The position numbers and the translations under genes are program-made. A stretch of DNA of 64,000 bases, taken from NCBI GenBank assembly GCA_009843915.1, contig VYCM01000037.1:1-64000 (forward strand). The letters run 5' to 3'. Below the pieces are notes generated by a model that worked only from the letters and a program-made list of their open reading frames with translations, was not told the DNA's origin and did not search any database. The DNA comes from Acidimicrobiaceae bacterium. Its GTDB lineage: Bacteria; Actinomycetota; Acidimicrobiia; Acidimicrobiales; Aldehydirespiratoraceae. Within the stretch, counting starts at the first letter, position 1. Every line of letters begins with the position of its first letter. This document shows positions 1-64,000 of the stretch, piece by piece.

Positions 1-1341
1 GGCCGTGTAGGAATCGGCCAGCCAGTAGCCGCAGTACTCGCTGAAGCTGCGGGTCAACCCAGAGGTGCGGGGATGGAACCCCGTCTCCTTGGTCAGCTGT
101 GCCTCGGAGTCTGCGGTCATGCGGATCGCCGTCGCTTTCTTGAACCGGTTGGCAGAGGGATAGACCCGCACCGCGATGTCGGTGGGGTTCCAGGCGTTGG
201 CCGCGTCGATGTCGTCGGGGCATGAGGTGGACACGCACACCAGGTCCTCCAGAGCCCGCAGCAGGACGTAGTCGCCCGGCCGGGACCACGGCTCGTCGAG
301 GTGGATCTGGTTGTGGTCGTCGAGGTTGGTGTTGTAGAAGAAGTTGATGGCCTCCCAGCCCCGGCGGCGGGCCACTCCGTAGGGGCCGAGTTCGTTGTTG
401 ATGTTCTCGGTGCAGTTGACGTGGCCGGGGTAGCCCATCTCCTCGTAGTAGCGGGCGTTGCAGGCCGTGTTGAACGTGTCGTGGCGACCGACGGTGTCCT
501 GGACCACCTCGACCAGGGGCTGCATCCTGGCGTTGAAGAACTTGGAGTAGAGGCCGGGCGCAGGACAGCTCGCGCCCATGAGGGTGCGGGTGATGGTGGC
601 GTCCAGGCAGAGATCGGCGCCCGCTTCGAGGTCGGCGACCGCGAAGCACTGGAAGTCCGAGCACTGCCGGCCCTCCACGTCGACGACCTGGAACCAGTCG
701 CCCTTGGCGACCTCGTAGGCCCTCGCCGTGCTGTTCCTGATGATGAAGTCCTGGCTGGGATCGGCCAGCGGCGCGGGCAGCAGCGGCTCGGTGGAGGAGC
801 GGGTCACGTCGCGGCGGTGCACGTAGGCGATCAGGTCGGTGGCGGGAGCACCGCCGTGGGCCGACATCGGCTCGCCCGGTGCGACGATCACGCAGGCGAC
901 GTCGTCATGGGCCACCACCCTGGTCCGGGCGCCGGGCGCGGTGTCGTCGCCCAGGACCCTCAACGGAGTCGCGGCCCGCAGCGCGGCCAGGTCCACGCCG
1001 GCGCGTTCCAGCCCGACCCGCACCCGGCGGGCGTCCTGAAGCTCGGCGGAGAGAATGCCTACTGCGGCCGGTTCCTCGGTAGAGCGGGCCCGGCTGCCGT
1101 TGCCGCTACCGGGGGCATCGGCGGAGCCGAGCAGGTTGGGATCGGATCGACCGTTGGCGTCGAATGCCACCAGCTCGCAAGGCTGGCGACCCTCGGGATC
1201 GACGATCTCCAGCTCGTCACCAGCGTCGAGGGCCAGGACGGTGGCGCCGCCGCCGGTCACCCGGTAGCGCTCGACTCCCGGTCCGAGCATCAACAGCCCC
1301 GGCACCAGGACCCTGGGCTGGTCCGGTGCGGTCGTGGTCAT
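1..1341 (-). CDS. DUF1989 domain protein leading into a GcvT-type aminomethyltransferase (C-terminal part beyond window)
   Basis: Reading leftwards from the ATG at 1341, the frame is open for 447 codons to the window edge, so the ORF track missed it for lack of a stop. GGGAGG lies five bases before the ATG. Two DUF1989-like halves are visible, each with a 'VD.EGRQ' motif (about residues 45-55 and 220-230); the second has 'NCTENINNELGPYGV' and 'DDHNQIHLDEPWSRPGDY'. The last 35 residues ('FHPRTSGLTRSFSEYCGYW') match the linker that joins DUF1989 (urea-carboxylase-associated) domains to a GcvT folate-binding aminomethyltransferase in known fusion proteins. By family this suggests cytosolic breakdown of a methylated or ureido amine, but the substrate is unknown. 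The GcvT half lies outside the window and is inferred. Confidence 0.8.
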   Translation of the reverse strand, partial: MTTTAPDQPRVLVPGLLMLGPGVERYRVTGGGATVLALDAGDELEIVDPEGRQPCELVAFDANGRSDPNLLGSADAPGSGNGSRARSTEEPAAVGILSAELQDARRVRVGLERAGVDLAALRAATPLRVLGDDTAPGARTRVVAHDDVACVIVAPGEPMSAHGGAPATDLIAYVHRRDVTRSSTEPLLPAPLADPSQDFIIRNSTARAYEVAKGDWFQVVDVEGRQCSDFQCFAVADLEAGADLCLDATITRTLMGASCPAPGLYSKFFNARMQPLVEVVQDTVGRHDTFNTACNARYYEEMGYPGHVNCTENINNELGPYGVARRRGWEAINFFYNTNLDDHNQIHLDEPWSRPGDYVLLRALEDLVCVSTSCPDDIDAANAWNPTDIAVRVYPSANRFKKATAIRMTADSEAQLTKETGFHPRTSGLTRSFSEYCGYWLADSYTA

Positions 1342-1410
1342 GATCGCCTCCCTCGAGGTGATGATCTTCGTGGCCAGTCTCGCGGTGCGCGCCTGAGCAC
1401 GCAACCGGCA

Positions 1411-1821
1411 TTAGCGCCTCCGCCTGCCCAATGGCCCAGACAGTCCGTGCCCCGGTGGCTTGTCGTCGGTGCCGGATGCGGAGACACCAGCGAACATCTC
1501 CCAGATCAGTAGGACGGCGGCCACGACACAGACCGCGGCCGCTATCCAGAGCCCCACGGCGGGGTCGGTCCCGCCGTCAAGAATCCTTCGGATCGCGATA
1601 GCACCGGCGAAGCCGGCGCCGATCCAAGCCGGTCGCCAGCCCACCTGGACGAGCCCGGCGGTGACCAGGCTCACGACCAGGACCAGTTGGCCGTCATTGA
1701 CGGCGACCCCCTGCACCGACTCCGTGCCGTTCGCTGATGCAGTCGTGTGCCACGGCAAGAACATCGCCGCGGCGGCTACGACCGCGCAAGCCTGCGCGAT
1801 CCGCTTACGAGGGATCCTCAC
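1411..1821 (-). CDS. hypothetical integral membrane protein
   Basis: This 136-aa protein starts with GTG. It shows about four hydrophobic segments: residues 8-25, 45-62, 66-82 and 88-110. 'FLPWHT' followed by a polar Asn/Ser/Gly loop resembles small actinobacterial membrane proteins of unknown function. The C-terminus is Arg-rich and probably cytosolic. It lies between the DUF1989-GcvT gene and the amt microprotein group on the same strand, separated from the latter by a strong hairpin, so it probably belongs to a different transcript. No function can be assigned. Confidence 0.6.
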   Translation of the reverse strand: MRIPRKRIAQACAVVAAAAMFLPWHTTASANGTESVQGVAVNDGQLVLVVSLVTAGLVQVGWRPAWIGAGFAGAIAIRRILDGGTDPAVGLWIAAAVCVVAAVLLIWEMFAGVSASGTDDKPPGHGLSGPLGRRRR

Positions 1822-1846
1822 GGCGTCAGGCTAGGGGCCAGATGCA

Positions 1847-1889
1847 GGGGCTGGCGCCGCACCGCTCAGTGCGGCACGGCGCCAGCCTC
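1847..1889. terminator. long GC-rich hairpin, probable terminator of the amt operon
   Basis: A perfect 11-bp inverted repeat (GGCTGGCGCCG / CGGCGCCAGCC), extendable to 13 pairs with one G-U, flanks an inner CCGC/GCGG stem. It lies just after the stop of the last amt-linked microprotein. There is no T-run on either side, as is common for hairpin terminators in GC-rich actinobacteria. Confidence 0.5.
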
Positions 1890-1911
1890 CTTGAATGGGG
1901 TGAGTCAGGTG

Positions 1912-2037
1912 TCAGAAAGCCTGGATGGCGATAATCGTGAAGACGATGCAGGCGATCGTGAAGACGATGAACGCCATCTCGATGCCCTTGTCGTGGCCCT
2001 GCTTTCCCTGGAACTCGATTTGCTTACGACGTGCCAT
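1912..2037 (-). CDS. 41-aa single-pass membrane microprotein, amt operon
   Basis: This gene is too short for the ORF track. It starts with ATG at 2037, preceded by GGAGG inside the end of the upstream gene, and ends with TGA at 1912-1914. The protein has a basic N-terminus ('MARRKQIEFQGKQGHDKG') and one hydrophobic helix of about 20 residues rich in Ile, Phe and Val. Its start is one base from the stop of the 74-aa gene, whose Shine-Dalgarno sequence (GGAGGACTGA) is the same, so the two are probably translated together. It may be a small subunit or regulator of the ammonium transporter. That role is inferred from position only. Confidence 0.6.
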   Translation of the reverse strand: MARRKQIEFQGKQGHDKGIEMAFIVFTIACIVFTIIAIQAF

Positions 2038-2038
2038 G

Positions 2039-2263
2039 TCAGTCCTCCGAGCCGTACTTGTCGGCGAGCCGGTCGGCCGCGTGGTTCAGTAGCTTGTCCT
2101 CGCGGGTCGTCACCAGTATCGCGGAGATCACGGAGACCGCGATCCCGATAATGGCGAGGACGACCGAGGGGCCGGCGCCGAAGACGGGGCCTTCAGCCCA
2201 CGTGAAATACGGGCCGGCCAGCTCTACGCCTTGTTCCCAACTGTCGAAGGGGAAGCTGTTCAT
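2039..2263 (-). CDS. 74-aa membrane microprotein, amt operon
   Basis: An ATG start preceded by AAGGAGG supports this 74-aa protein. It has an amphipathic, aromatic-rich N-terminus (about residues 1-28), one transmembrane helix (about residues 30-52, 'SVVLAIIGIAVSVISAILV') and a charged cytosolic-looking tail ('TTREDKLLNHAADRLADKY'). It sits between two other microprotein genes downstream of amt on the same strand. I do not recognise the family. The conserved-looking gene order suggests a partner of the transporter, but this is inference. Confidence 0.65.
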   Translation of the reverse strand: MNSFPFDSWEQGVELAGPYFTWAEGPVFGAGPSVVLAIIGIAVSVISAILVTTREDKLLNHAADRLADKYGSED

Positions 2264-2289
2264 TCAGTCCTCCTTAGTTCTGAACGTTG

Positions 2290-2418
2290 TTAGTTGTCGT
2301 GTCGATGACCGTGCGCCTCCAGCTGCGCTCGCCTGCGCTTGCCCCAGTACCCGGCGGCTGCGACCACCAAGTACATGACGGCAAGTGCTCCGACGAGCTG
2401 CAGCCATGAGGCGGACAC
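2290..2418 (-). CDS. 42-aa membrane microprotein immediately downstream of amt
   Basis: A GTG start at 2418 lies only three bases after the amt stop (2422-2424), and the frame runs to TAA at 2290-2292. The 42-aa product has one hydrophobic helix ('WLQLVGALAVMYLVVAAAGY') followed by a strongly basic tail (KRRR) and a His-rich end (HGHRHDN). The tiny gap to amt implies translational coupling. The ORF track shows only a shadow frame here. The function is unknown; a transporter-associated microprotein is the simplest reading. Confidence 0.55.
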   Translation of the reverse strand: MSASWLQLVGALAVMYLVVAAAGYWGKRRRAQLEAHGHRHDN

Positions 2419-2421
2419 CGG

Positions 2422-3810
2422 CTAGCGGTTGGCGGCGAGATCCGCCCGCAGCGTGGCTGCGGCCGACTCCCGTGAGCCGTCGGCGTGGGTGATGGGCTCG
2501 TCGGCCCGGCCGAACTCCGGATAGAAGTCCGTCTCGAACTCGGCCATGTCGAGGCCCTCGACCTCCACCTCGGGCGGAACCCTCAGCAGGTTCAGCTTCT
2601 TGAGGATCCACGATGCGACGTAGCCGGTCACGAAGGACAGCGCGAAGATCGCGGTCACGCCCACGAGCTGGCCCAGGAAGCTGGTCTCCACACCGGCGGG
2701 GCCCGTCGGGTACCCGGCGGCGAAGATGCCAACGGCCAGCGCGCCCCACATTCCCATGAAGCCGTGGACTGACACTGCGCCGACGGCGTCGTCGACGCGG
2801 GCCTTGCTCTCCAGCCAGCCGCCGATGTAGTAGCAGGCTCCGGCCGAGAAGAAGGCCAGAATCAGCACCAGGTTGGGGCTGTAGATGTCGGCGCCCGCCG
2901 ATACCGCCACCACGCCGGCCAGGCCTCCGGAGATGGTCCAGAACGGATCACCCTTGGAGAAGATGTAGCCGCCGGCGAAACCGCCCGCGAAGCCCATCGT
3001 GATGGTGTAGGTGATGGCCGACAGCGTGGCCGGGTTGAAGTAGATGTTGGCCCAACCCGGAGTGGTGTCGGCTGTGATGGCAAGGCACGCCGCGTAGAAG
3101 GCGTAGAAGGCCGTGAAGATGATCATCAACCCCATCAGCGTGAGGTGCAGGTTGTGGGGCTGGAAGGCTCTCGTGCCGCCGTTGCTGTCGTACCTCCCGA
3201 TCCTCGGACCGAGGTTGTACAGCACGCCCAGGGCGAAGATGCCGGCCACACCGTGGACCACCATCGAAGCCGCGAAGTCGTGGTAGCCGAAGTGCACGCC
3301 CAGCCAGCCTCCGTAGCTCCATCCCCAAGCCGCAGCGACGACCCAGACCAAGCCGCCCATCAGGGCGGTCAGCCACAGGTAGGCCGAGATGCGGATGCGC
3401 TCGATCACCGCGCCGGACATGATCGATCCCGTCGTCCAGGAGAACAGCACGAAGGCCGCCCAGAAGACGCCCGTGATGTTGTCGCCGAGGTGTGGTCCCG
3501 CGGAGCCGTCCCACGCGAGGCCGTAGCCGTCGCCGCAGAAGTAAAGCCCCGTCAGACCTGCGGGGCTTGCTCCATCGGCTGAAACTGTGAACTTCAAACC
3601 TTCCTGCATGCAGAAGTACACGTACCAGCCGAGGTAGTAGAACGTCGGCGTCACCACGGCAATCGTCATGATGTTCTTCATCGCCGTCGACATGATGTTC
3701 TTGCGGCGGCTGACGCCGGCCTCGTAGGTCATGAACCCCACGTGCAGCAGCCACATGATTGCGACGGTGAAGAAGTAGTAAGCCTCGGTGAACACTATGG
3801 CAGTGCTCAT
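2422..3810 (-). CDS. amt: ammonium transporter (Amt/MEP/Rh family)
   Basis: The product is a polytopic inner-membrane ammonium channel of 462 aa. The ORF is open from 3894, but I place the start at the ATG at 3810 because GGGGGTGA precedes it and the Amt-like N-terminal segment begins just after it ('TEAYYFFTVAIMWLLHVGF'). Both pore histidines are present, in 'SMVVHGVAG' and 'VSVHGFMGMWG', each in its usual family context. About 11 hydrophobic segments are seen. The cytosolic C-terminal tail ('PPEVEVEGLDMAEFETDFYP') is the type that normally responds to the PII protein GlnK, but no glnK is present nearby. Three microprotein genes follow. A 156-bp upstream region carries tandem repeats and a -10-like box. 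Confidence 0.92.
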   Translation of the reverse strand: MSTAIVFTEAYYFFTVAIMWLLHVGFMTYEAGVSRRKNIMSTAMKNIMTIAVVTPTFYYLGWYVYFCMQEGLKFTVSADGASPAGLTGLYFCGDGYGLAWDGSAGPHLGDNITGVFWAAFVLFSWTTGSIMSGAVIERIRISAYLWLTALMGGLVWVVAAAWGWSYGGWLGVHFGYHDFAASMVVHGVAGIFALGVLYNLGPRIGRYDSNGGTRAFQPHNLHLTLMGLMIIFTAFYAFYAACLAITADTTPGWANIYFNPATLSAITYTITMGFAGGFAGGYIFSKGDPFWTISGGLAGVVAVSAGADIYSPNLVLILAFFSAGACYYIGGWLESKARVDDAVGAVSVHGFMGMWGALAVGIFAAGYPTGPAGVETSFLGQLVGVTAIFALSFVTGYVASWILKKLNLLRVPPEVEVEGLDMAEFETDFYPEFGRADEPITHADGSRESAAATLRADLAANR

Positions 3811-3863
3811 TGACTCACCCCCAATTCTTCTTGTCCGCTCCGACCGTTCGGCCGGACCTGCCG

Positions 3864-3869
3864 ACAATA
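3864..3869 (-). promoter_or_regulatory. -10-like box for amt (TATTGT)
   Basis: TATTGT on the minus strand lies 54 bp before the amt ATG. The hexamer 17 bp further upstream (GGGAAC) is a poor -35 box, which fits a promoter that needs an activator. The three 20-bp repeats begin about 8 bp beyond that hexamer, the usual place for activator sites. This is inference from sequence only. Confidence 0.35.
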
Positions 3870-3900
3870 GCACAGACCGCGCCGCCGTTCCCATCGGACG

Positions 3901-3960
3901 TTTTCCCAGGGGTCGCGAACCTTTCCCAGGGTTCGCGAATCTTTCCCAGGGTTCGCGCCT
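3901..3960. repeat. three tandem 20-bp repeats upstream of amt
   Basis: Three head-to-tail copies of a 20-bp unit (consensus CTTTCCCAGGGTTCGCGAAT) fill the space between the stop of the upstream gene and the amt promoter region. Each copy holds a full or partial TTCGCGAA palindrome. The 20-bp period is close to two helical turns, so bound proteins would sit on one DNA face. This is a good candidate operator for nitrogen control. It does not obviously match the GlnR or AmtR consensus sequences I know. Confidence 0.7.
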
Positions 3961-3966
3961 CGGCCT

Positions 3967-4365
3967 CTACTCCTCGTCCGGCTTGTGGACTATGACTTGC
4001 TCGAGGTCCCCGGTGTTGGCGTTGACCCAGATGTCGGCCTTGCGAAGGAAATCCTCGGGGCCGCCCTCGGGGTCGTCCACGGTGAAGACCACCACCCACA
4101 TCAACTTGGCCGGGAAGCCCTGGCGCAGCAGCTTGGCCTCTGTCTTGTCGGGTGCGAAGGCGCCGGGCTCGGCTGCCAGCGCAGCGCTGGCAGTGGCGAC
4201 GGCCTGCTCCTCCTCCACGTTCCTGCCCCCGCAGCTCTGCGGGGCGAACACGGAGACGAGCACCAGCGCCAGTCCGACCACGATCAGCAGCTTGGTGCGT
4301 CCCTGAATAGCCGTGATGCGGCCCAGCAGACCGGCGGGCTTCTCCTCGGGTGTCGGGTCGGTCAT
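3967..4365 (-). CDS. single-pass membrane-anchored hypothetical protein
   Basis: This 132-aa protein has a short cytosolic N-terminus (residues 1-23), one transmembrane helix (about 25-42, 'LLIVVGLALVLVSVFAP') and an extracytoplasmic domain of about 85 residues. The end of that domain ('KADIWVNANTGDLEQVIV') resembles the strand pattern of PepSY-like domains, though the match is weak. The start is the ATG at 4365. It follows a small membrane-protein gene by 30 bp and precedes the amt promoter repeats. Its function is unknown. Confidence 0.6.
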   Translation of the reverse strand: MTDPTPEEKPAGLLGRITAIQGRTKLLIVVGLALVLVSVFAPQSCGGRNVEEEQAVATASAALAAEPGAFAPDKTEAKLLRQGFPAKLMWVVVFTVDDPEGGPEDFLRKADIWVNANTGDLEQVIVHKPDEE

Positions 4366-4395
4366 CCTCGCGGTCCTGGCGTCGGTGAGGCTGGG

Positions 4396-4623
4396 TCAGG
4401 CCTTGTCGGGCGATCGCACGAAGAAGCGCAGAACTATGTACCCCAGCACGTGCGTGAGGGCCACGACGCTAACCCACCAGAGCAGAATGTGGACCCGGTA
4501 GCCGCGTTCGCGGCACTCCCAGACTGTGAGCCCGATCGCGGCGACCAGCAGGATCCAGAGCACGAGGCTCTGGCGGATGGCGTTGCCCTCGCTGAACCAG
4601 TCGAGAATGATCAGCAGGCCCAC
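4396..4623 (-). CDS. small two-helix membrane protein
   Basis: This 75-aa hydrophobic protein starts with GTG. It has an N-terminal amphipathic stretch and two clear transmembrane helices (about residues 18-34 and 44-66) separated by a basic loop ('ECRERGYRVH'). It lies 45 bp after the XRE-cupin regulator gene and 30 bp before the next membrane-protein gene, so the three probably share a transcript. I do not recognise the family. Confidence 0.5.
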   Translation of the reverse strand: MGLLIILDWFSEGNAIRQSLVLWILLVAAIGLTVWECRERGYRVHILLWWVSVVALTHVLGYIVLRFFVRSPDKA

Positions 4624-4668
4624 GGGACGGTCCTGGCCTTCTTGAAGGCGGTCAGCAGGCTCACAGAC

Positions 4669-5370
4669 TCATCCTCCCGCGCCGGTCCCCGGTTCGCTGG
4701 CCGGGTACACCTTGATGGAGATGAAACGTATCGGCAACTTGACGAGCTCGACCGGGCCGTGGGCCACCTCGCCGTGGATCTGCATGGTGTCGCCCGCATC
4801 GAGGCGGTAGGCCTTCCCGCCGTAGCCGTAGTCGATCGACCCCTCCAGCACATGGATGAACTCCACCCCGGGATGCTGGTAGAGGGGGAACACGCCGCCC
4901 GGCTCGGTGATGGTGGTGATCATCGGCTCGATCACGCGGTTGGGGCCGCGCAGGGTGCCTAGATCCTGGTAGAGGCGCCCCGGCCCACCTCCCTGGTGGT
5001 GGATCTCGTGACCCTCGCCCGCCTTGACGATCACCAGGTCGTGCTCCTCGTCCAGGCCTCGGAACAGGGCGGTGACCGGGACGCGGGCGGTGGCCGCCAG
5101 CCGCACGAGGGTCGACAGGCTCGGTGCGCTCTGGCCGTGCTCGATCTTGGAGAGCATTCCCAGGGAGATCTCGGCGCCGGCCGCGAACTCCGACATCGTC
5201 ATGTTCAGCGACCGGCGGAACTCCCGGACCCGGCTCCCCACCACGCGACACAACTCCTCGGTGGAGACCGAGGGGCCAAGCGCCTCGGTGAGTTCCGGAT
5301 CGACGCGGTCGCCGCCGGAGCCGGATTGAGAGGCATCCGCAAGTGCCATACCCGAGATGATGCCAGACAT
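4669..5370 (-). CDS. XRE-family transcriptional regulator with C-terminal cupin sensor domain
   Basis: This 233-aa one-component regulator has a helix-turn-helix at about residues 45-100 ('VREFRRSLNMTMSEFAAGAE', then 'LGMLSKIEHGQSAPSLSTL') and a cupin domain at about residues 120-228 ('HPGVEFIHVLEGSIDYGYGG', 'GDTMQIHGEVAHGP'). In this family the cupin usually binds a small ligand or metal and modulates DNA binding. It diverges from the TauD-like oxygenase gene across 64 bp, so that gene is its most likely target besides itself. An internal ATG at codon 8 is an alternative start. Confidence 0.88.
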   Translation of the reverse strand: MSGIISGMALADASQSGSGGDRVDPELTEALGPSVSTEELCRVVGSRVREFRRSLNMTMSEFAAGAEISLGMLSKIEHGQSAPSLSTLVRLAATARVPVTALFRGLDEEHDLVIVKAGEGHEIHHQGGGPGRLYQDLGTLRGPNRVIEPMITTITEPGGVFPLYQHPGVEFIHVLEGSIDYGYGGKAYRLDAGDTMQIHGEVAHGPVELVKLPIRFISIKVYPASEPGTGAGG

Positions 5371-5422
5371 AGGCGGGTTCGGAGGGTACTGGGGCCGGCC
5401 GACCTGGTGAACGTACCGCTAC

Positions 5423-5428
5423 TAGCAT
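5423..5428 (+). promoter_or_regulatory. -10-like box, leaderless start of the TauD-like gene
   Basis: TAGCAT is followed by six bases and then the GTG start at 5435. This is the spacing expected when transcription begins at the start codon itself. No Shine-Dalgarno sequence precedes the GTG. Confidence 0.45.
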
Positions 5429-5434
5429 TGTGCC

Positions 5435-6346
5435 GTGGGGGCGCTCAGCATCAGTCCCGCCGCATCCACCATCGGCGCCGAGGTATCGGGCGTGGACCTG
5501 TCGGAGGACATCGGCGACGGACTGGCCGCCGAGATCAGGACAGCGCTGGACGAGCGCGGGGTGCTTGTGTTCGTGGGCCAGGACGCCGTCGACGACGAGT
5601 CCCAGAAGCGGATCGCCTCCATCTGGGCCGCTCCGCAGCCACATCCGATAGTGGAGTTCCTCGGCAGCGACGAGGTGATCGGCGTGGTCTACAACGACGC
5701 CGATCACCCTCCGGCCGCGGGCGGTGACAGCTCGTTCCACACCGATTACTCGTTCAATCCCGAGATCCCTGATGTGGCCGTGCTGCGGCCGTTGGTGATA
5801 CCTCCCGTGGGCGGGGCAACGCTGTGGTCGGACGCGCGTGCCGCTCTGGAACGCCTCGACGGTGACCTGGTGGACGGGTTGCGGGGCCGGGTCGCCCATC
5901 ACGACATGGGACCGGGCTTCCGGCGTGAGATGGAGGCCCGGTTCGGTACCGAGGTGGCCGACAAGCTCGATGCACGTTTCGGAGCCGGCTACCGCCATCC
6001 CATTGTCGCTGTGCATCCACGCACCGGTGATGAGCTGCTGTTCGTGAATGCGGGCTTCACCCGTCATGTGATCGGGCTGCCCACAGGCCGCAGCGACGCC
6101 CTGCTCTCCCGATTGTTCGAGACCTTCACTGATCCGTCCATCACCTTCAGTCGCAGCTGGAGGCCGGGCGATGTCGCCGTGTGGGACGAGCACCGCACCG
6201 TCCACCGCGGCCCCAACGACTTCGCTCCTCACGAACGCCGGTTGCACCGTTGCACGGCAGGCAGCCGCCGCCCCATCGCGTCCGAGGCCAAGCCAGGTCG
6301 ACGGGGCGGGCCAGCCGGTGGTCGGTCTACCATCGGCGCATCCTGA
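5435..6346 (+). CDS. TauD/TfdA-family Fe(II)/2-oxoglutarate dioxygenase
   Basis: This 303-aa cytosolic enzyme has the TauD fold markers: an N-terminal 'IGAEVSGVDLSED' strand motif, the first two iron ligands in 'FHTDYSF' (about residues 108-114) and the distal histidine in 'VWDEHRTVHRGPND', followed by an Arg-rich 2-oxoglutarate-binding stretch. Family members hydroxylate sulfonates such as taurine, aryloxyacids or other small acids next to a heteroatom; the substrate cannot be read from sequence. The last 25 residues are low-complexity and beyond the fold. The start is GTG with a leaderless-type promoter, and the divergent XRE-cupin gene may regulate it. Confidence 0.85.
   Translation: MGALSISPAASTIGAEVSGVDLSEDIGDGLAAEIRTALDERGVLVFVGQDAVDDESQKRIASIWAAPQPHPIVEFLGSDEVIGVVYNDADHPPAAGGDSSFHTDYSFNPEIPDVAVLRPLVIPPVGGATLWSDARAALERLDGDLVDGLRGRVAHHDMGPGFRREMEARFGTEVADKLDARFGAGYRHPIVAVHPRTGDELLFVNAGFTRHVIGLPTGRSDALLSRLFETFTDPSITFSRSWRPGDVAVWDEHRTVHRGPNDFAPHERRLHRCTAGSRRPIASEAKPGRRGGPAGGRSTIGAS

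Positions 6347-52327: not shown

Positions 52328-52331
<4 letters not shown>
52304..52331 (-). promoter_or_regulatory. promoter for acp-PPTase-phyH at the PKS stop codon
   Basis: On the minus strand TTGACA (52331-52326, a perfect -35), a 16-bp spacer and TAGGCT (52309-52304) stand before the ACP gene. The -35 box contains the PKS TGA. The AT-rich stretch TTCAAAAAAATTGAA just upstream is striking in this GC-rich DNA and could serve as an UP-like element. Confidence 0.6.
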
Positions 52332-62003
<9,672 letters not shown>

Positions 62004-62011
<8 letters not shown>

Positions 62012-62909
62012 GGCCGATCGGCTCCAGGAACTTGCGCATAATGGCCACACAGTTGTCCGGCTGCTCCAGCTGGAGGAAGTGCGTGGCGTCGGGCAGGAAG
62101 TCGTAGTCCACTGTCAGCATCTCGCCGAAGTCCAGCGTCGGAAGGTACGAGTAGGGCAGCGTCGGATCGGCGCCGATCACCTTGGTCGGGCATTGCAGAG
62201 CATCCAGATCGACCAGCACCGCGAAGATCCTGGCATGAGCCATGATCTGCGCCTCGTGCTCCCGGGGGAAGCGGAGTTCGAAGCCGGAGCCGTTCTCAGC
62301 CTCGCGCAGGGTGGTGCTCGCCATCAGGTGATGAACACCGGGGACCATTTGCCTGAACGGGGGCAGGAAGGCGAGCAGGTCGGCGTAGGCCTCCAGGGTC
62401 TTGAACTGATAGGTGCGCTGCTCGGCCATCTTGGCGGCGCGCTTGATGGCCTCGTCGAACTCGTTGCGGGTCTCCACCGGCTTGCGCAGGGGGGGATCGA
62501 ACAGGACGAGAGCCGAGAACCGGCGACCTTCGGTGGTGGACAGCAGGGGCGCCAGCGACGACACCGAATGGAATACGCCCACTTGCGGCTTGGCGCCGAA
62601 GTGGCTGTCGATGGCGTCGAGGACCCGGTCATGGTCGTCGACGAAGGTGGGGACGGTGTGGTCCGACAGTGGACTGGCCGCGTTCCAGCCGTGGCTCCTG
62701 AGGTCGTAGACGACGACGTCGAACTCGTCTGTCAGCAGCGACCAGAACGGGTAGTAGAGATCAATCGAGAGACCGATGCCGTGGCTCAGGACGAGCCTGG
62801 TTCCCTCCGGGTTCCCGTGCCGGCGCACGGCAATGGTGGAATCCCCCTCCACCGGTACCTCGTGGACCGACAGTGGCTCGGGAAGGATCCAGTCAGCTTC
62901 CGAGGCCAT
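62004..62909 (-). CDS. alpha/beta hydrolase, possible chain-release enzyme of the PKS
   Basis: This 301-aa protein has 'LVLSHGIGLSIDLYYPFWSL' (oxyanion-hole HG), 'VVVYDLRSHGWN', a nucleophile region 'VGVFHSVSSLAPLLS' in which Ser replaces the last Gly of the usual GxSxG elbow, an acid near 'KVIGADPTLPYS' and the catalytic His in 'DATHFLQLEQPDN'. Its stop overlaps the PKS start, so the two are made together. A thioesterase-like release or editing role is the natural guess. It carries a leaderless-type promoter. Confidence 0.83.
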
Positions 62910-62953: not shown

Positions 62954-64000
62954 CTAGCCCGTCTCGCTGACTTGTACCGTCACGACATCGAGCCCATGGA
63001 ACTTCTGGTGGTGCACCGACGAGGCGTAGTGCTTCAGCAGCCTGAGTGAGATCTCGCCCTCCTCCATGCCCGCCGCGCTCTGAGACTCCTCGCCCAGGTG
63101 GGCCAGCCGATCCTCGAGGTTCTGCTCGTCGAACACGGCCAGGAACTCCATCTCCACAACCGTGCCGCTGTGACGGGCCACGACGATCAGGCTGGGCGCG
63201 CCGTCAACGGAGCGGTCGCCTCCCTGTTGCAGCAGGCTTGCCAGTGTCTCATCGCCCGCCGAGCGAAGTCGCTGTGCCGCAGGCTCGTCCCATCCGATGT
63301 CGGCCGCGAAGCCGCGGAGGAACTCGTCGATCTCGCGGACGGCCGATGGGTGCAGGTCGACCCGCAGGCGCGCCCGCCGGCCCCGGCTCGTCAGCTCCAC
63401 GAACTGGGTAATCAGCACCGCGACGAGAGCACCGGCCAGCATGCCGTTGTCGAGCAGCGGCCCCCATGTCTCGCCCATCAGGTCTGCGCCGATGGTCTGG
63501 TTGTCCAGGCCGACGCCCACCGAGAACGCGATTCCCACGGTGAGGGCCTTGCCCCGGTCGAGGCCGTCACTGACCACGGTCTGGATGCCGCTGACGAAGA
63601 GGATGCCGACGGCGGTGAGCAGGTAGGCGCCCATGACCGGGCTGGGGATGGCGAGGAGCACGGCCGTCACCTTGGGCAGCAGGGACAGCACCACCATGAG
63701 CGCCCCGACGGCATAGCCGACCCGGCGGGCGGCCACGCCAGTGAGGTTGATCAGTGACGGGCTCGACGACGAGTAGACGCTGGTCGGCGGCGTGCCGGCC
63801 AAGCCTGAGAGCAGGATGCCGATCCCGTTGGTGTTGAGCGAACCCTGCACCAGCCGGAAGTCGGTCACTCGGGGCCGGCGCCATGAGACCTGCTGGATGG
63901 CGATGGAATCGCCGATGTTCTTCACGCTGCCCACCAGGGCCACCACCACGAAGGCCGGCAGCAGCGCCCAGAAGTCGACGCCGGGAGTCAAGTCGAGTCC
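62954..64000 (-). CDS. NCS2-type (xanthine/uracil) permease with C-terminal cytosolic domain, 5' part beyond window
   Basis: The frame stays open to the window edge; the track's start at 63991 is an internal TTG, so the gene begins outside. The visible 349 codons hold the last membrane part of a nucleobase-cation symporter ('LNTNGIGILLSGLAGTPPTS', 'SPVMGAYLLTAVGILFVSGI') and then about 130 soluble residues ('DEFLRGFAADIGWDEPAAQR', 'LRLLKHYASSVHHQKFHG'). The soluble part recalls degenerate histidine-kinase-type ATPase or anti-sigma folds and is not part of ordinary permeases. The substrate is probably a purine or pyrimidine base. Confidence 0.82.
   Translation of the reverse strand, partial: GLDLTPGVDFWALLPAFVVVALVGSVKNIGDSIAIQQVSWRRPRVTDFRLVQGSLNTNGIGILLSGLAGTPPTSVYSSSSPSLINLTGVAARRVGYAVGALMVVLSLLPKVTAVLLAIPSPVMGAYLLTAVGILFVSGIQTVVSDGLDRGKALTVGIAFSVGVGLDNQTIGADLMGETWGPLLDNGMLAGALVAVLITQFVELTSRGRRARLRVDLHPSAVREIDEFLRGFAADIGWDEPAAQRLRSAGDETLASLLQQGGDRSVDGAPSLIVVARHSGTVVEMEFLAVFDEQNLEDRLAHLGEESQSAAGMEEGEISLRLLKHYASSVHHQKFHGLDVVTVQVSETG

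Follow-up and report, generated by a model that had tools for sequence, protein, structure and literature searches.

The 74-amino-acid membrane protein P74, encoded behind an ammonium transporter gene (amt) of an Acidimicrobiaceae bacterium, is specifically paired with one divergent clade of Amt-family channels, and this clade is linked to the genes of methylamine catabolism. Since the Amt-P74 pair usually lies among such genes, the set probably serves as a channel for methylammonium uptake, equipped with a small subunit of its own. The locus was found in a stretch of 64,000 nucleotides (contig VYCM01000037.1, positions 1 to 64,000), which is referred to below as the window.

The amt operon of the window and its small genes

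The operon is larger than first described, with P136 and tdm downstream and P132 and P75 upstream, all in one orientation. Read 5' to 3' on the minus strand, its genes follow one another in this order (occurrence is counted over 34 Actinomycetota-type loci that were collected by an amt search):

XRE-cupin transcription regulator, 4669..5370, minus strand: HTH_3 and Cupin_2 domains (Pfam), present in 21 of 34 loci; likely the regulator of the cluster
P75, 4396..4623, minus strand: small membrane protein, conserved upstream of amt (29 of 34 loci by profile)
P132, 3967..4365, minus strand: small membrane-anchored protein, conserved upstream of amt (30 of 34 loci by profile)
amt, 2422..3810, minus strand: divergent Amt/Mep/Rh-family channel of 462 aa, assigned by PF00909 (8.6e-65), residue mapping, tree and AF2 model
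P42, 2290..2418, minus strand: 42 aa, single helix, with a short N-terminus predicted outside and KRRR inside (30 of 34 loci)
P74, 2039..2263, minus strand: 74 aa, single-helix membrane protein, partner of the Amt clade across phyla (33 of 34 loci)
P41, 1912..2037, minus strand: 41 aa, single helix, with a basic N-terminus predicted inside and the pattern MA(G/RR)KQIEF..Q.H.K..E (31 of 34 loci)
P136, 1411..1821, minus strand: hydrophobic protein of 136 aa, the next operon gene, conserved (27 of 34 loci by profile)
tdm, 1..1341, minus strand: 5' part of a trimethylamine N-oxide demethylase gene (DUF1989 and GcvT), truncated by the start of contig C13

The original prediction had placed three ORFs of 42, 74 and 41 codons behind amt, each with one predicted helix and with good coupling or Shine-Dalgarno sites, two of them below a 60-aa limit. 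All of this holds: the ORFs lie on the minus strand, each encodes a single hydrophobic stretch, and two are indeed shorter than 60 aa (42 and 41 aa). P42 starts with GTG 3 nt past the amt stop, P74 is preceded by the Shine-Dalgarno sequence AAGGAGG, and P41 starts 1 nt past the P74 stop behind a GGAGG site. P42, P74, P41 and P136 have no fitting model in Pfam or NCBIfam, and P132 shows a weak likeness to PepSY (Pfam, E=0.22); in most actinobacterial loci P132 and P75 add two more conserved small membrane proteins on the upstream side. The cut tdm copy of the window reaches 539.9 bits against NCBIfam model NF053776, and a full-length orthologue in locus L004 scores 1191.8 bits, above the cut-off of 1100. 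No promoter-like site emerged from a promoter scan, a terminator scan returned one terminator-like site against 1.5 expected, and an Rfam search of window positions 1-6000 gave no match. At its other end the window holds a gene for a 3240-aa type I polyketide synthase (52328..62050, minus strand; KS-AT-DH-MT-ER-KR-ACP-KS by Pfam), and next to it a partial xanthine/uracil permease gene (62954..63991).

Conservation of the three ORFs beside amt in relatives, proposed at the outset as the check, was borne out. The only Actinomycetota locus without P74 (L030) is cut by the contig end, and in the Actinomycetota relatives the order after amt is invariant, with the same frame and stop. A tblastn search with P74 matched 23 of 149 relatives at one site each; amt adjoins P74 in 22 of these genomes, and the 23rd locus stops short of amt. 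Against eight relatives, dN/dS was 0.24-0.77 for P42, 0.20-0.41 for P74 and 0.04-0.38 for P41, compared with 0.12-0.34 for amt itself. It is true that two of the ORFs are very short and that one has a GTG start adjoining the amt stop, as might be expected of chance or non-functional frames preserved through overlap with regulatory DNA. But conservation of the protein sequence across phyla, dN/dS values under 1, the Shine-Dalgarno sites and the annotation of the small gene as a CDS of its own in plasmid records make that explanation very improbable, and for P74 it is already refuted. Sequence comparison thus confirms the three ORFs as real, conserved genes, far beyond what chance would give. 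The three proteins are not equal, because P74 pairs with Amt across phyla and P42 and P41 were found in Actinomycetota only (a related form of P41 occurs in a further actinobacterial family). P41 and P42 are best read as further single-helix partners in Actinomycetota.

P74 and a divergent clade of Amt channels

P74 homologues occupy the position immediately behind amt in Alphaproteobacteria, Cyanobacteria, Planctomycetes, other Actinomycetota and one Acidobacteria-labelled MAG. Profile-profile comparison joins the three P74 groups with probabilities of 95%, 93% and 92%, against 10%, 1% and 1% when the profiles of P41 and P42 served as controls; judged by these profiles, the P74 family spans at least four bacterial phyla and stands nearly always behind one unusual Amt branch. 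The pairing was counted in 40 regions around divergent Amts from Alphaproteobacteria, cyanobacteria and distant Actinomycetota, and in 20 regions around canonical Amts, all from Alphaproteobacteria and mostly from genomes that also hold the divergent Amt. A P74 gene lies directly downstream of 39 of the 40 divergent Amts, the 40th (L212) reaching a contig end, and follows 0 of the 20 canonical ones; these counts are not phylogenetically independent. The genomes are mostly metagenome bins, some of them incomplete, and are related to each other. About half of the 39 P74-type proteins had been used in profile training, and the remainder, which are independent, all match. Positives are rare, amounting to 1 of 246 Planctomycetota, 4 of 244 Cyanobacteria and 7 of 397 sampled Actinomycetota. 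Two further Actinomycetota (L230, L231) carry an Amt-P74 pair of the alphaproteobacterial type, a sign that the two genes may have moved together by horizontal transfer. In the cyanobacterial loci L206, L207 and L208 the P74-like protein is extended at its C-terminus (~137-168 aa as called). A natural fusion of amt and P74 was not seen among the loci examined.

The family is without a name in Pfam, NCBIfam and the PDB: neither P74 nor the other P74 types matched Pfam or NCBIfam significantly, and a PDB sequence search with P74 profiles gave weak helical matches only. AF2 modelled P74 alone as a helix (residues 31-71, pLDDT 74), with no fold to search with. Features shared among 51 aligned members are a Trp or Phe (in 46 of them) and an aromatic-Thr/Pro/Ser-aromatic triplet. 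Lys and Arg are scarce on the N-terminal side of the helix (mean 0.33) and Asp and Glu are frequent there (mean 3.45); the C-terminal side is richer in Lys and Arg in 48 of 51 members, and 45 of 51 have a Glu just past the helix. From this distribution of charges and motif the N-terminus is predicted outside and the C-terminus inside, which would place the motif W..[YF][TP][FW] outside the cell and the conserved Glu just inside.

The channel itself has the Amt domain (Pfam Ammonium_transp) and the 11-helix Amt fold, its AF2 model matching the five best Amt structures with TM-scores, normalised by target length, of 0.79-0.84. In a maximum-likelihood tree the 55 divergent Amts and the 23 canonical ones fall on opposite sides of a branch with support of 100/100. 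Two substitutions mark the clade, W212F and S219C (numbering of mature E. coli AmtB), present in 55 of 55 members and 0 of 23 canonical Amts, and likewise in 6 of 6 annotated plasmid copies; in the window Amt these are F235 and C242. Asp160, the Phe gate (F107/F215) and the twin histidines (H168/H318) are invariant in 55 of 55 members, being D178, F123/F238 and H186/H349 in the window protein, and the position of AmtB N216 is occupied by Tyr, Leu or Met. The ammonium-recruitment site S1 of AmtB is formed by F107, W148 and S219 (PMC10433425); the clade departs from its canonical form through Cys at position 219 in 55 of 55 members, with W148 and F107 retained. AmtB F103-Q104 corresponds to Ala-Phe in an ungapped helix alignment, a result that depends on the alignment, since a smaller one shifts position 103 and places Phe there; a firm claim of F103A was softened for this reason. 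In E. coli AmtB the exchange S219A raised methylammonium uptake and did not abolish it (PMC10433425), so S219C alone is no proof of a new substrate. The window Amt lies below the cut-offs of the NCBIfam models TIGR00836 (232.5 bits, cut-off 343.3) and TIGR03644 (170.4 bits, cut-off 514; alphaproteobacterial clade members score 151-190 bits) and is a member of neither. Of the Amts in the window genome, the remaining two (G000:C45:36172 and G000:C61:10832) are canonical at the hallmark positions, the latter with a long proline-rich C-terminal tail in open frame.

Methylamine catabolism and the proposed uptake unit

Genes of methylamine metabolism (gmaS, mgsABC, soxA/B, dmm and tdm homologues) occur within ~7 kb of 28 of the 40 divergent Amts but of only one of the 20 canonical Amts (Fisher p=1.1e-6, the sampled genomes being interrelated); gmaS was recognised as a type III glutamine-synthetase homologue with mgsABC as neighbours. 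No methylamine gene was found at the other 12 divergent loci, several of which lie on short contigs or among core genes. Of 71 relatives of the window genome, 19 have both P74 and MgsC (N-methylglutamate synthase), 1 has P74 alone, 2 have MgsC alone and 49 have neither (p=5e-14). The MgsC proteins of the relatives are 78-80% identical to alphaproteobacterial MgsC, and P74 and MgsC often share a contig, with 4-40 kb between them. Five genomes (G001, G018, G033, G036 and G041) have a complete gmaS-mgsA-mgsB-mgsC set near the amt-P74 cluster on the same contig, and tdm was seen there too in four of them (G001, G018, G036 and G041); the window genome has its gmaS-mgsABC set on contig C43. The tdm gene, which lies beyond P136, is present in 27 of 34 Actinomycetota loci. 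On a plasmid of Ruegeria conchae, dmmDABC stands on one side and amt, a gene for a 71-aa hypothetical protein, mgsABC and glnT on the other. Ponticoccus alexandrii has a plasmid with a like arrangement, and a Thioclava plasmid has the order FAD oxidoreductase, DUF1989 protein, FCD regulator, amt, 58-aa hypothetical protein and dmm genes. The plasmid-encoded small proteins match the merged P74 profile (3e-6 to 3e-27).

This tie to methylamine catabolism makes methylammonium a likelier substrate of the clade than ammonium alone. We therefore favour, with modest confidence, the reading of the locus as a methylated-amine uptake unit, in which P74 would be the dedicated subunit of an Amt-type channel for methylammonium and perhaps for ammonium too. 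The outer ammonium-recruitment site, altered by W212F, S219C and the replacement of Phe-Gln by Ala-Phe at 103-104, would most likely let methylammonium from the medium enter and, by way of the retained conduction machinery, pass to the cell interior, where gamma-glutamylmethylamide synthetase and N-methylglutamate synthase would use it up. The single helix of P74 may pack on the channel in a physical complex, and its acidic N-terminal segment, with the conserved Trp and the aromatic-Thr/Pro-aromatic motif, would then sit on the outer face by the pore entrance, where P74 could assist in capturing or choosing the cation or could lend the channel stability. Accessory proteins that draw substrate to the entrance of a transporter have a precedent (PMC9775063). 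A bolder extension, which we put forward tentatively and with less assurance, would make the Amt branch a methylated-amine importer across phyla, with the outer aromatic and acidic segment of P74 forming part of the entrance and selectivity shared by both proteins. The original prediction had proposed auxiliary subunits or regulators of an ammonium channel: for P74 an auxiliary subunit fits best, but the substrate is likelier to be methylammonium than ammonium alone, and the role does not fall equally to the three ORFs.

The divergent Amt might instead be an ammonium channel, general or serving the recovery or release of methylamine-derived ammonium, with P74 as a stability or assembly subunit that has no part in substrate selection. 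Several alphaproteobacteria with small genomes have this Amt alone: in 8 of 25 alphaproteobacterial genomes searched, some of them incomplete, it is the single Amt-family gene, and the channel may therefore carry ammonium too, or mainly. The intact twin histidines, Phe gate and Asp160 would suit such a function, and ammonium is the end product of methylamine breakdown (PMC7574528). On the other hand, genomes with canonical Amts keep an extra divergent one beside gmaS, mgs or dmm genes, the window genome has two other Amts, and the changes at and near the recruitment site are fixed; we regard a pure ammonium channel as possible but rather unlikely. Less probable still is that the microproteins open or close the channel in place of PII (GlnK), in a role like that of sP36 of Methanosarcina mazei. 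PII is a near-universal nitrogen regulator, and the absence of glnK beside the window amt, pointed out originally, proved true and extends to the whole genus. PF00543 has no match in the window genome (G000, 87.8% complete) nor in any of the 16 genomes of its genus, and does match 13 of 14 control genomes and 42 of 45 other members of the family and order searched. That a small protein is known to control an Amt also speaks for regulation (PMC10714827). Yet P74 occurs in relatives that have PII (G016, G027, G031, G033, G036 and G067); a mere replacement of PII was therefore rejected as the main reading. Furthermore, the most conserved part of P74 is predicted outside the cell, far from cytoplasmic nitrogen signals, and sP36 works jointly with GlnK1 (PMC10714827).

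Significance and relation to known systems

Methylamines are a widespread marine source of nitrogen and carbon, and no monomethylamine importer was found named in the literature consulted for bacteria with the N-methylglutamate pathway. The divergent Amt and P74 are a specific candidate that can be recognised by its residues and its small partner and that occurs in hosts available in culture for testing (Ruegeria, Thioclava and Ponticoccus), and they suggest that many marine genes named 'ammonium transporter' carry another substrate. We know of no single-helix subunit for the Amt family; if the proposal is true this would be, as far as found, the first case of a transmembrane subunit dedicated to an Amt-family channel.

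An amt gene in the methylamine clusters of Rhodobacteraceae is on record and is called an ammonium/ammonia transporter (PMC7574528; PMC5520151). It is very likely the same gene as the divergent Amt, since the plasmid copies of Ruegeria, Ponticoccus and Thioclava belong to the clade by their residues and lie inside such clusters. As far as consulted, both papers name amt simply as one of the genes present in such clusters and say nothing of the small gene behind it, of its characteristic residues or of a distribution that extends to Actinomycetota, Cyanobacteria and Planctomycetes; the open literature searched likewise gave no account of the P74-type partner, the residue pattern or the clade's broader occurrence. 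The NCBIfam subtype TIGR03644 ('probable ammonium transporter, marine subtype') has the Amt family and marine bacteria in common with the clade, which stays below its cut-off.

Among small proteins reported to act on an Amt, sP36 is the only one found in the literature; it has 61 aa, is spread through the cytoplasm when nitrogen is limiting, relocates to the membrane after an ammonium upshift and brings about the binding of GlnK1 (PMC10714827). P74 is proposed to act on an Amt likewise but is set apart from sP36, as described, by its predicted membrane span and a conserved end outside the cell. Very small proteins with one helix that belong to a transporter are familiar from the KdpF and AcrZ type. 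P74, P42 and P41 are likewise tiny one-helix proteins that accompany a transporter gene, but they match no sequence family. With the E. coli glnK-amtB system the window Amt shares the Amt/Mep/Rh fold, the Phe gate, Asp160 and the twin histidines; unlike that system it carries W212F and S219C, lacks an adjacent glnK in a genome without PII, and has small membrane partners downstream in a neighbourhood of methylamine genes.
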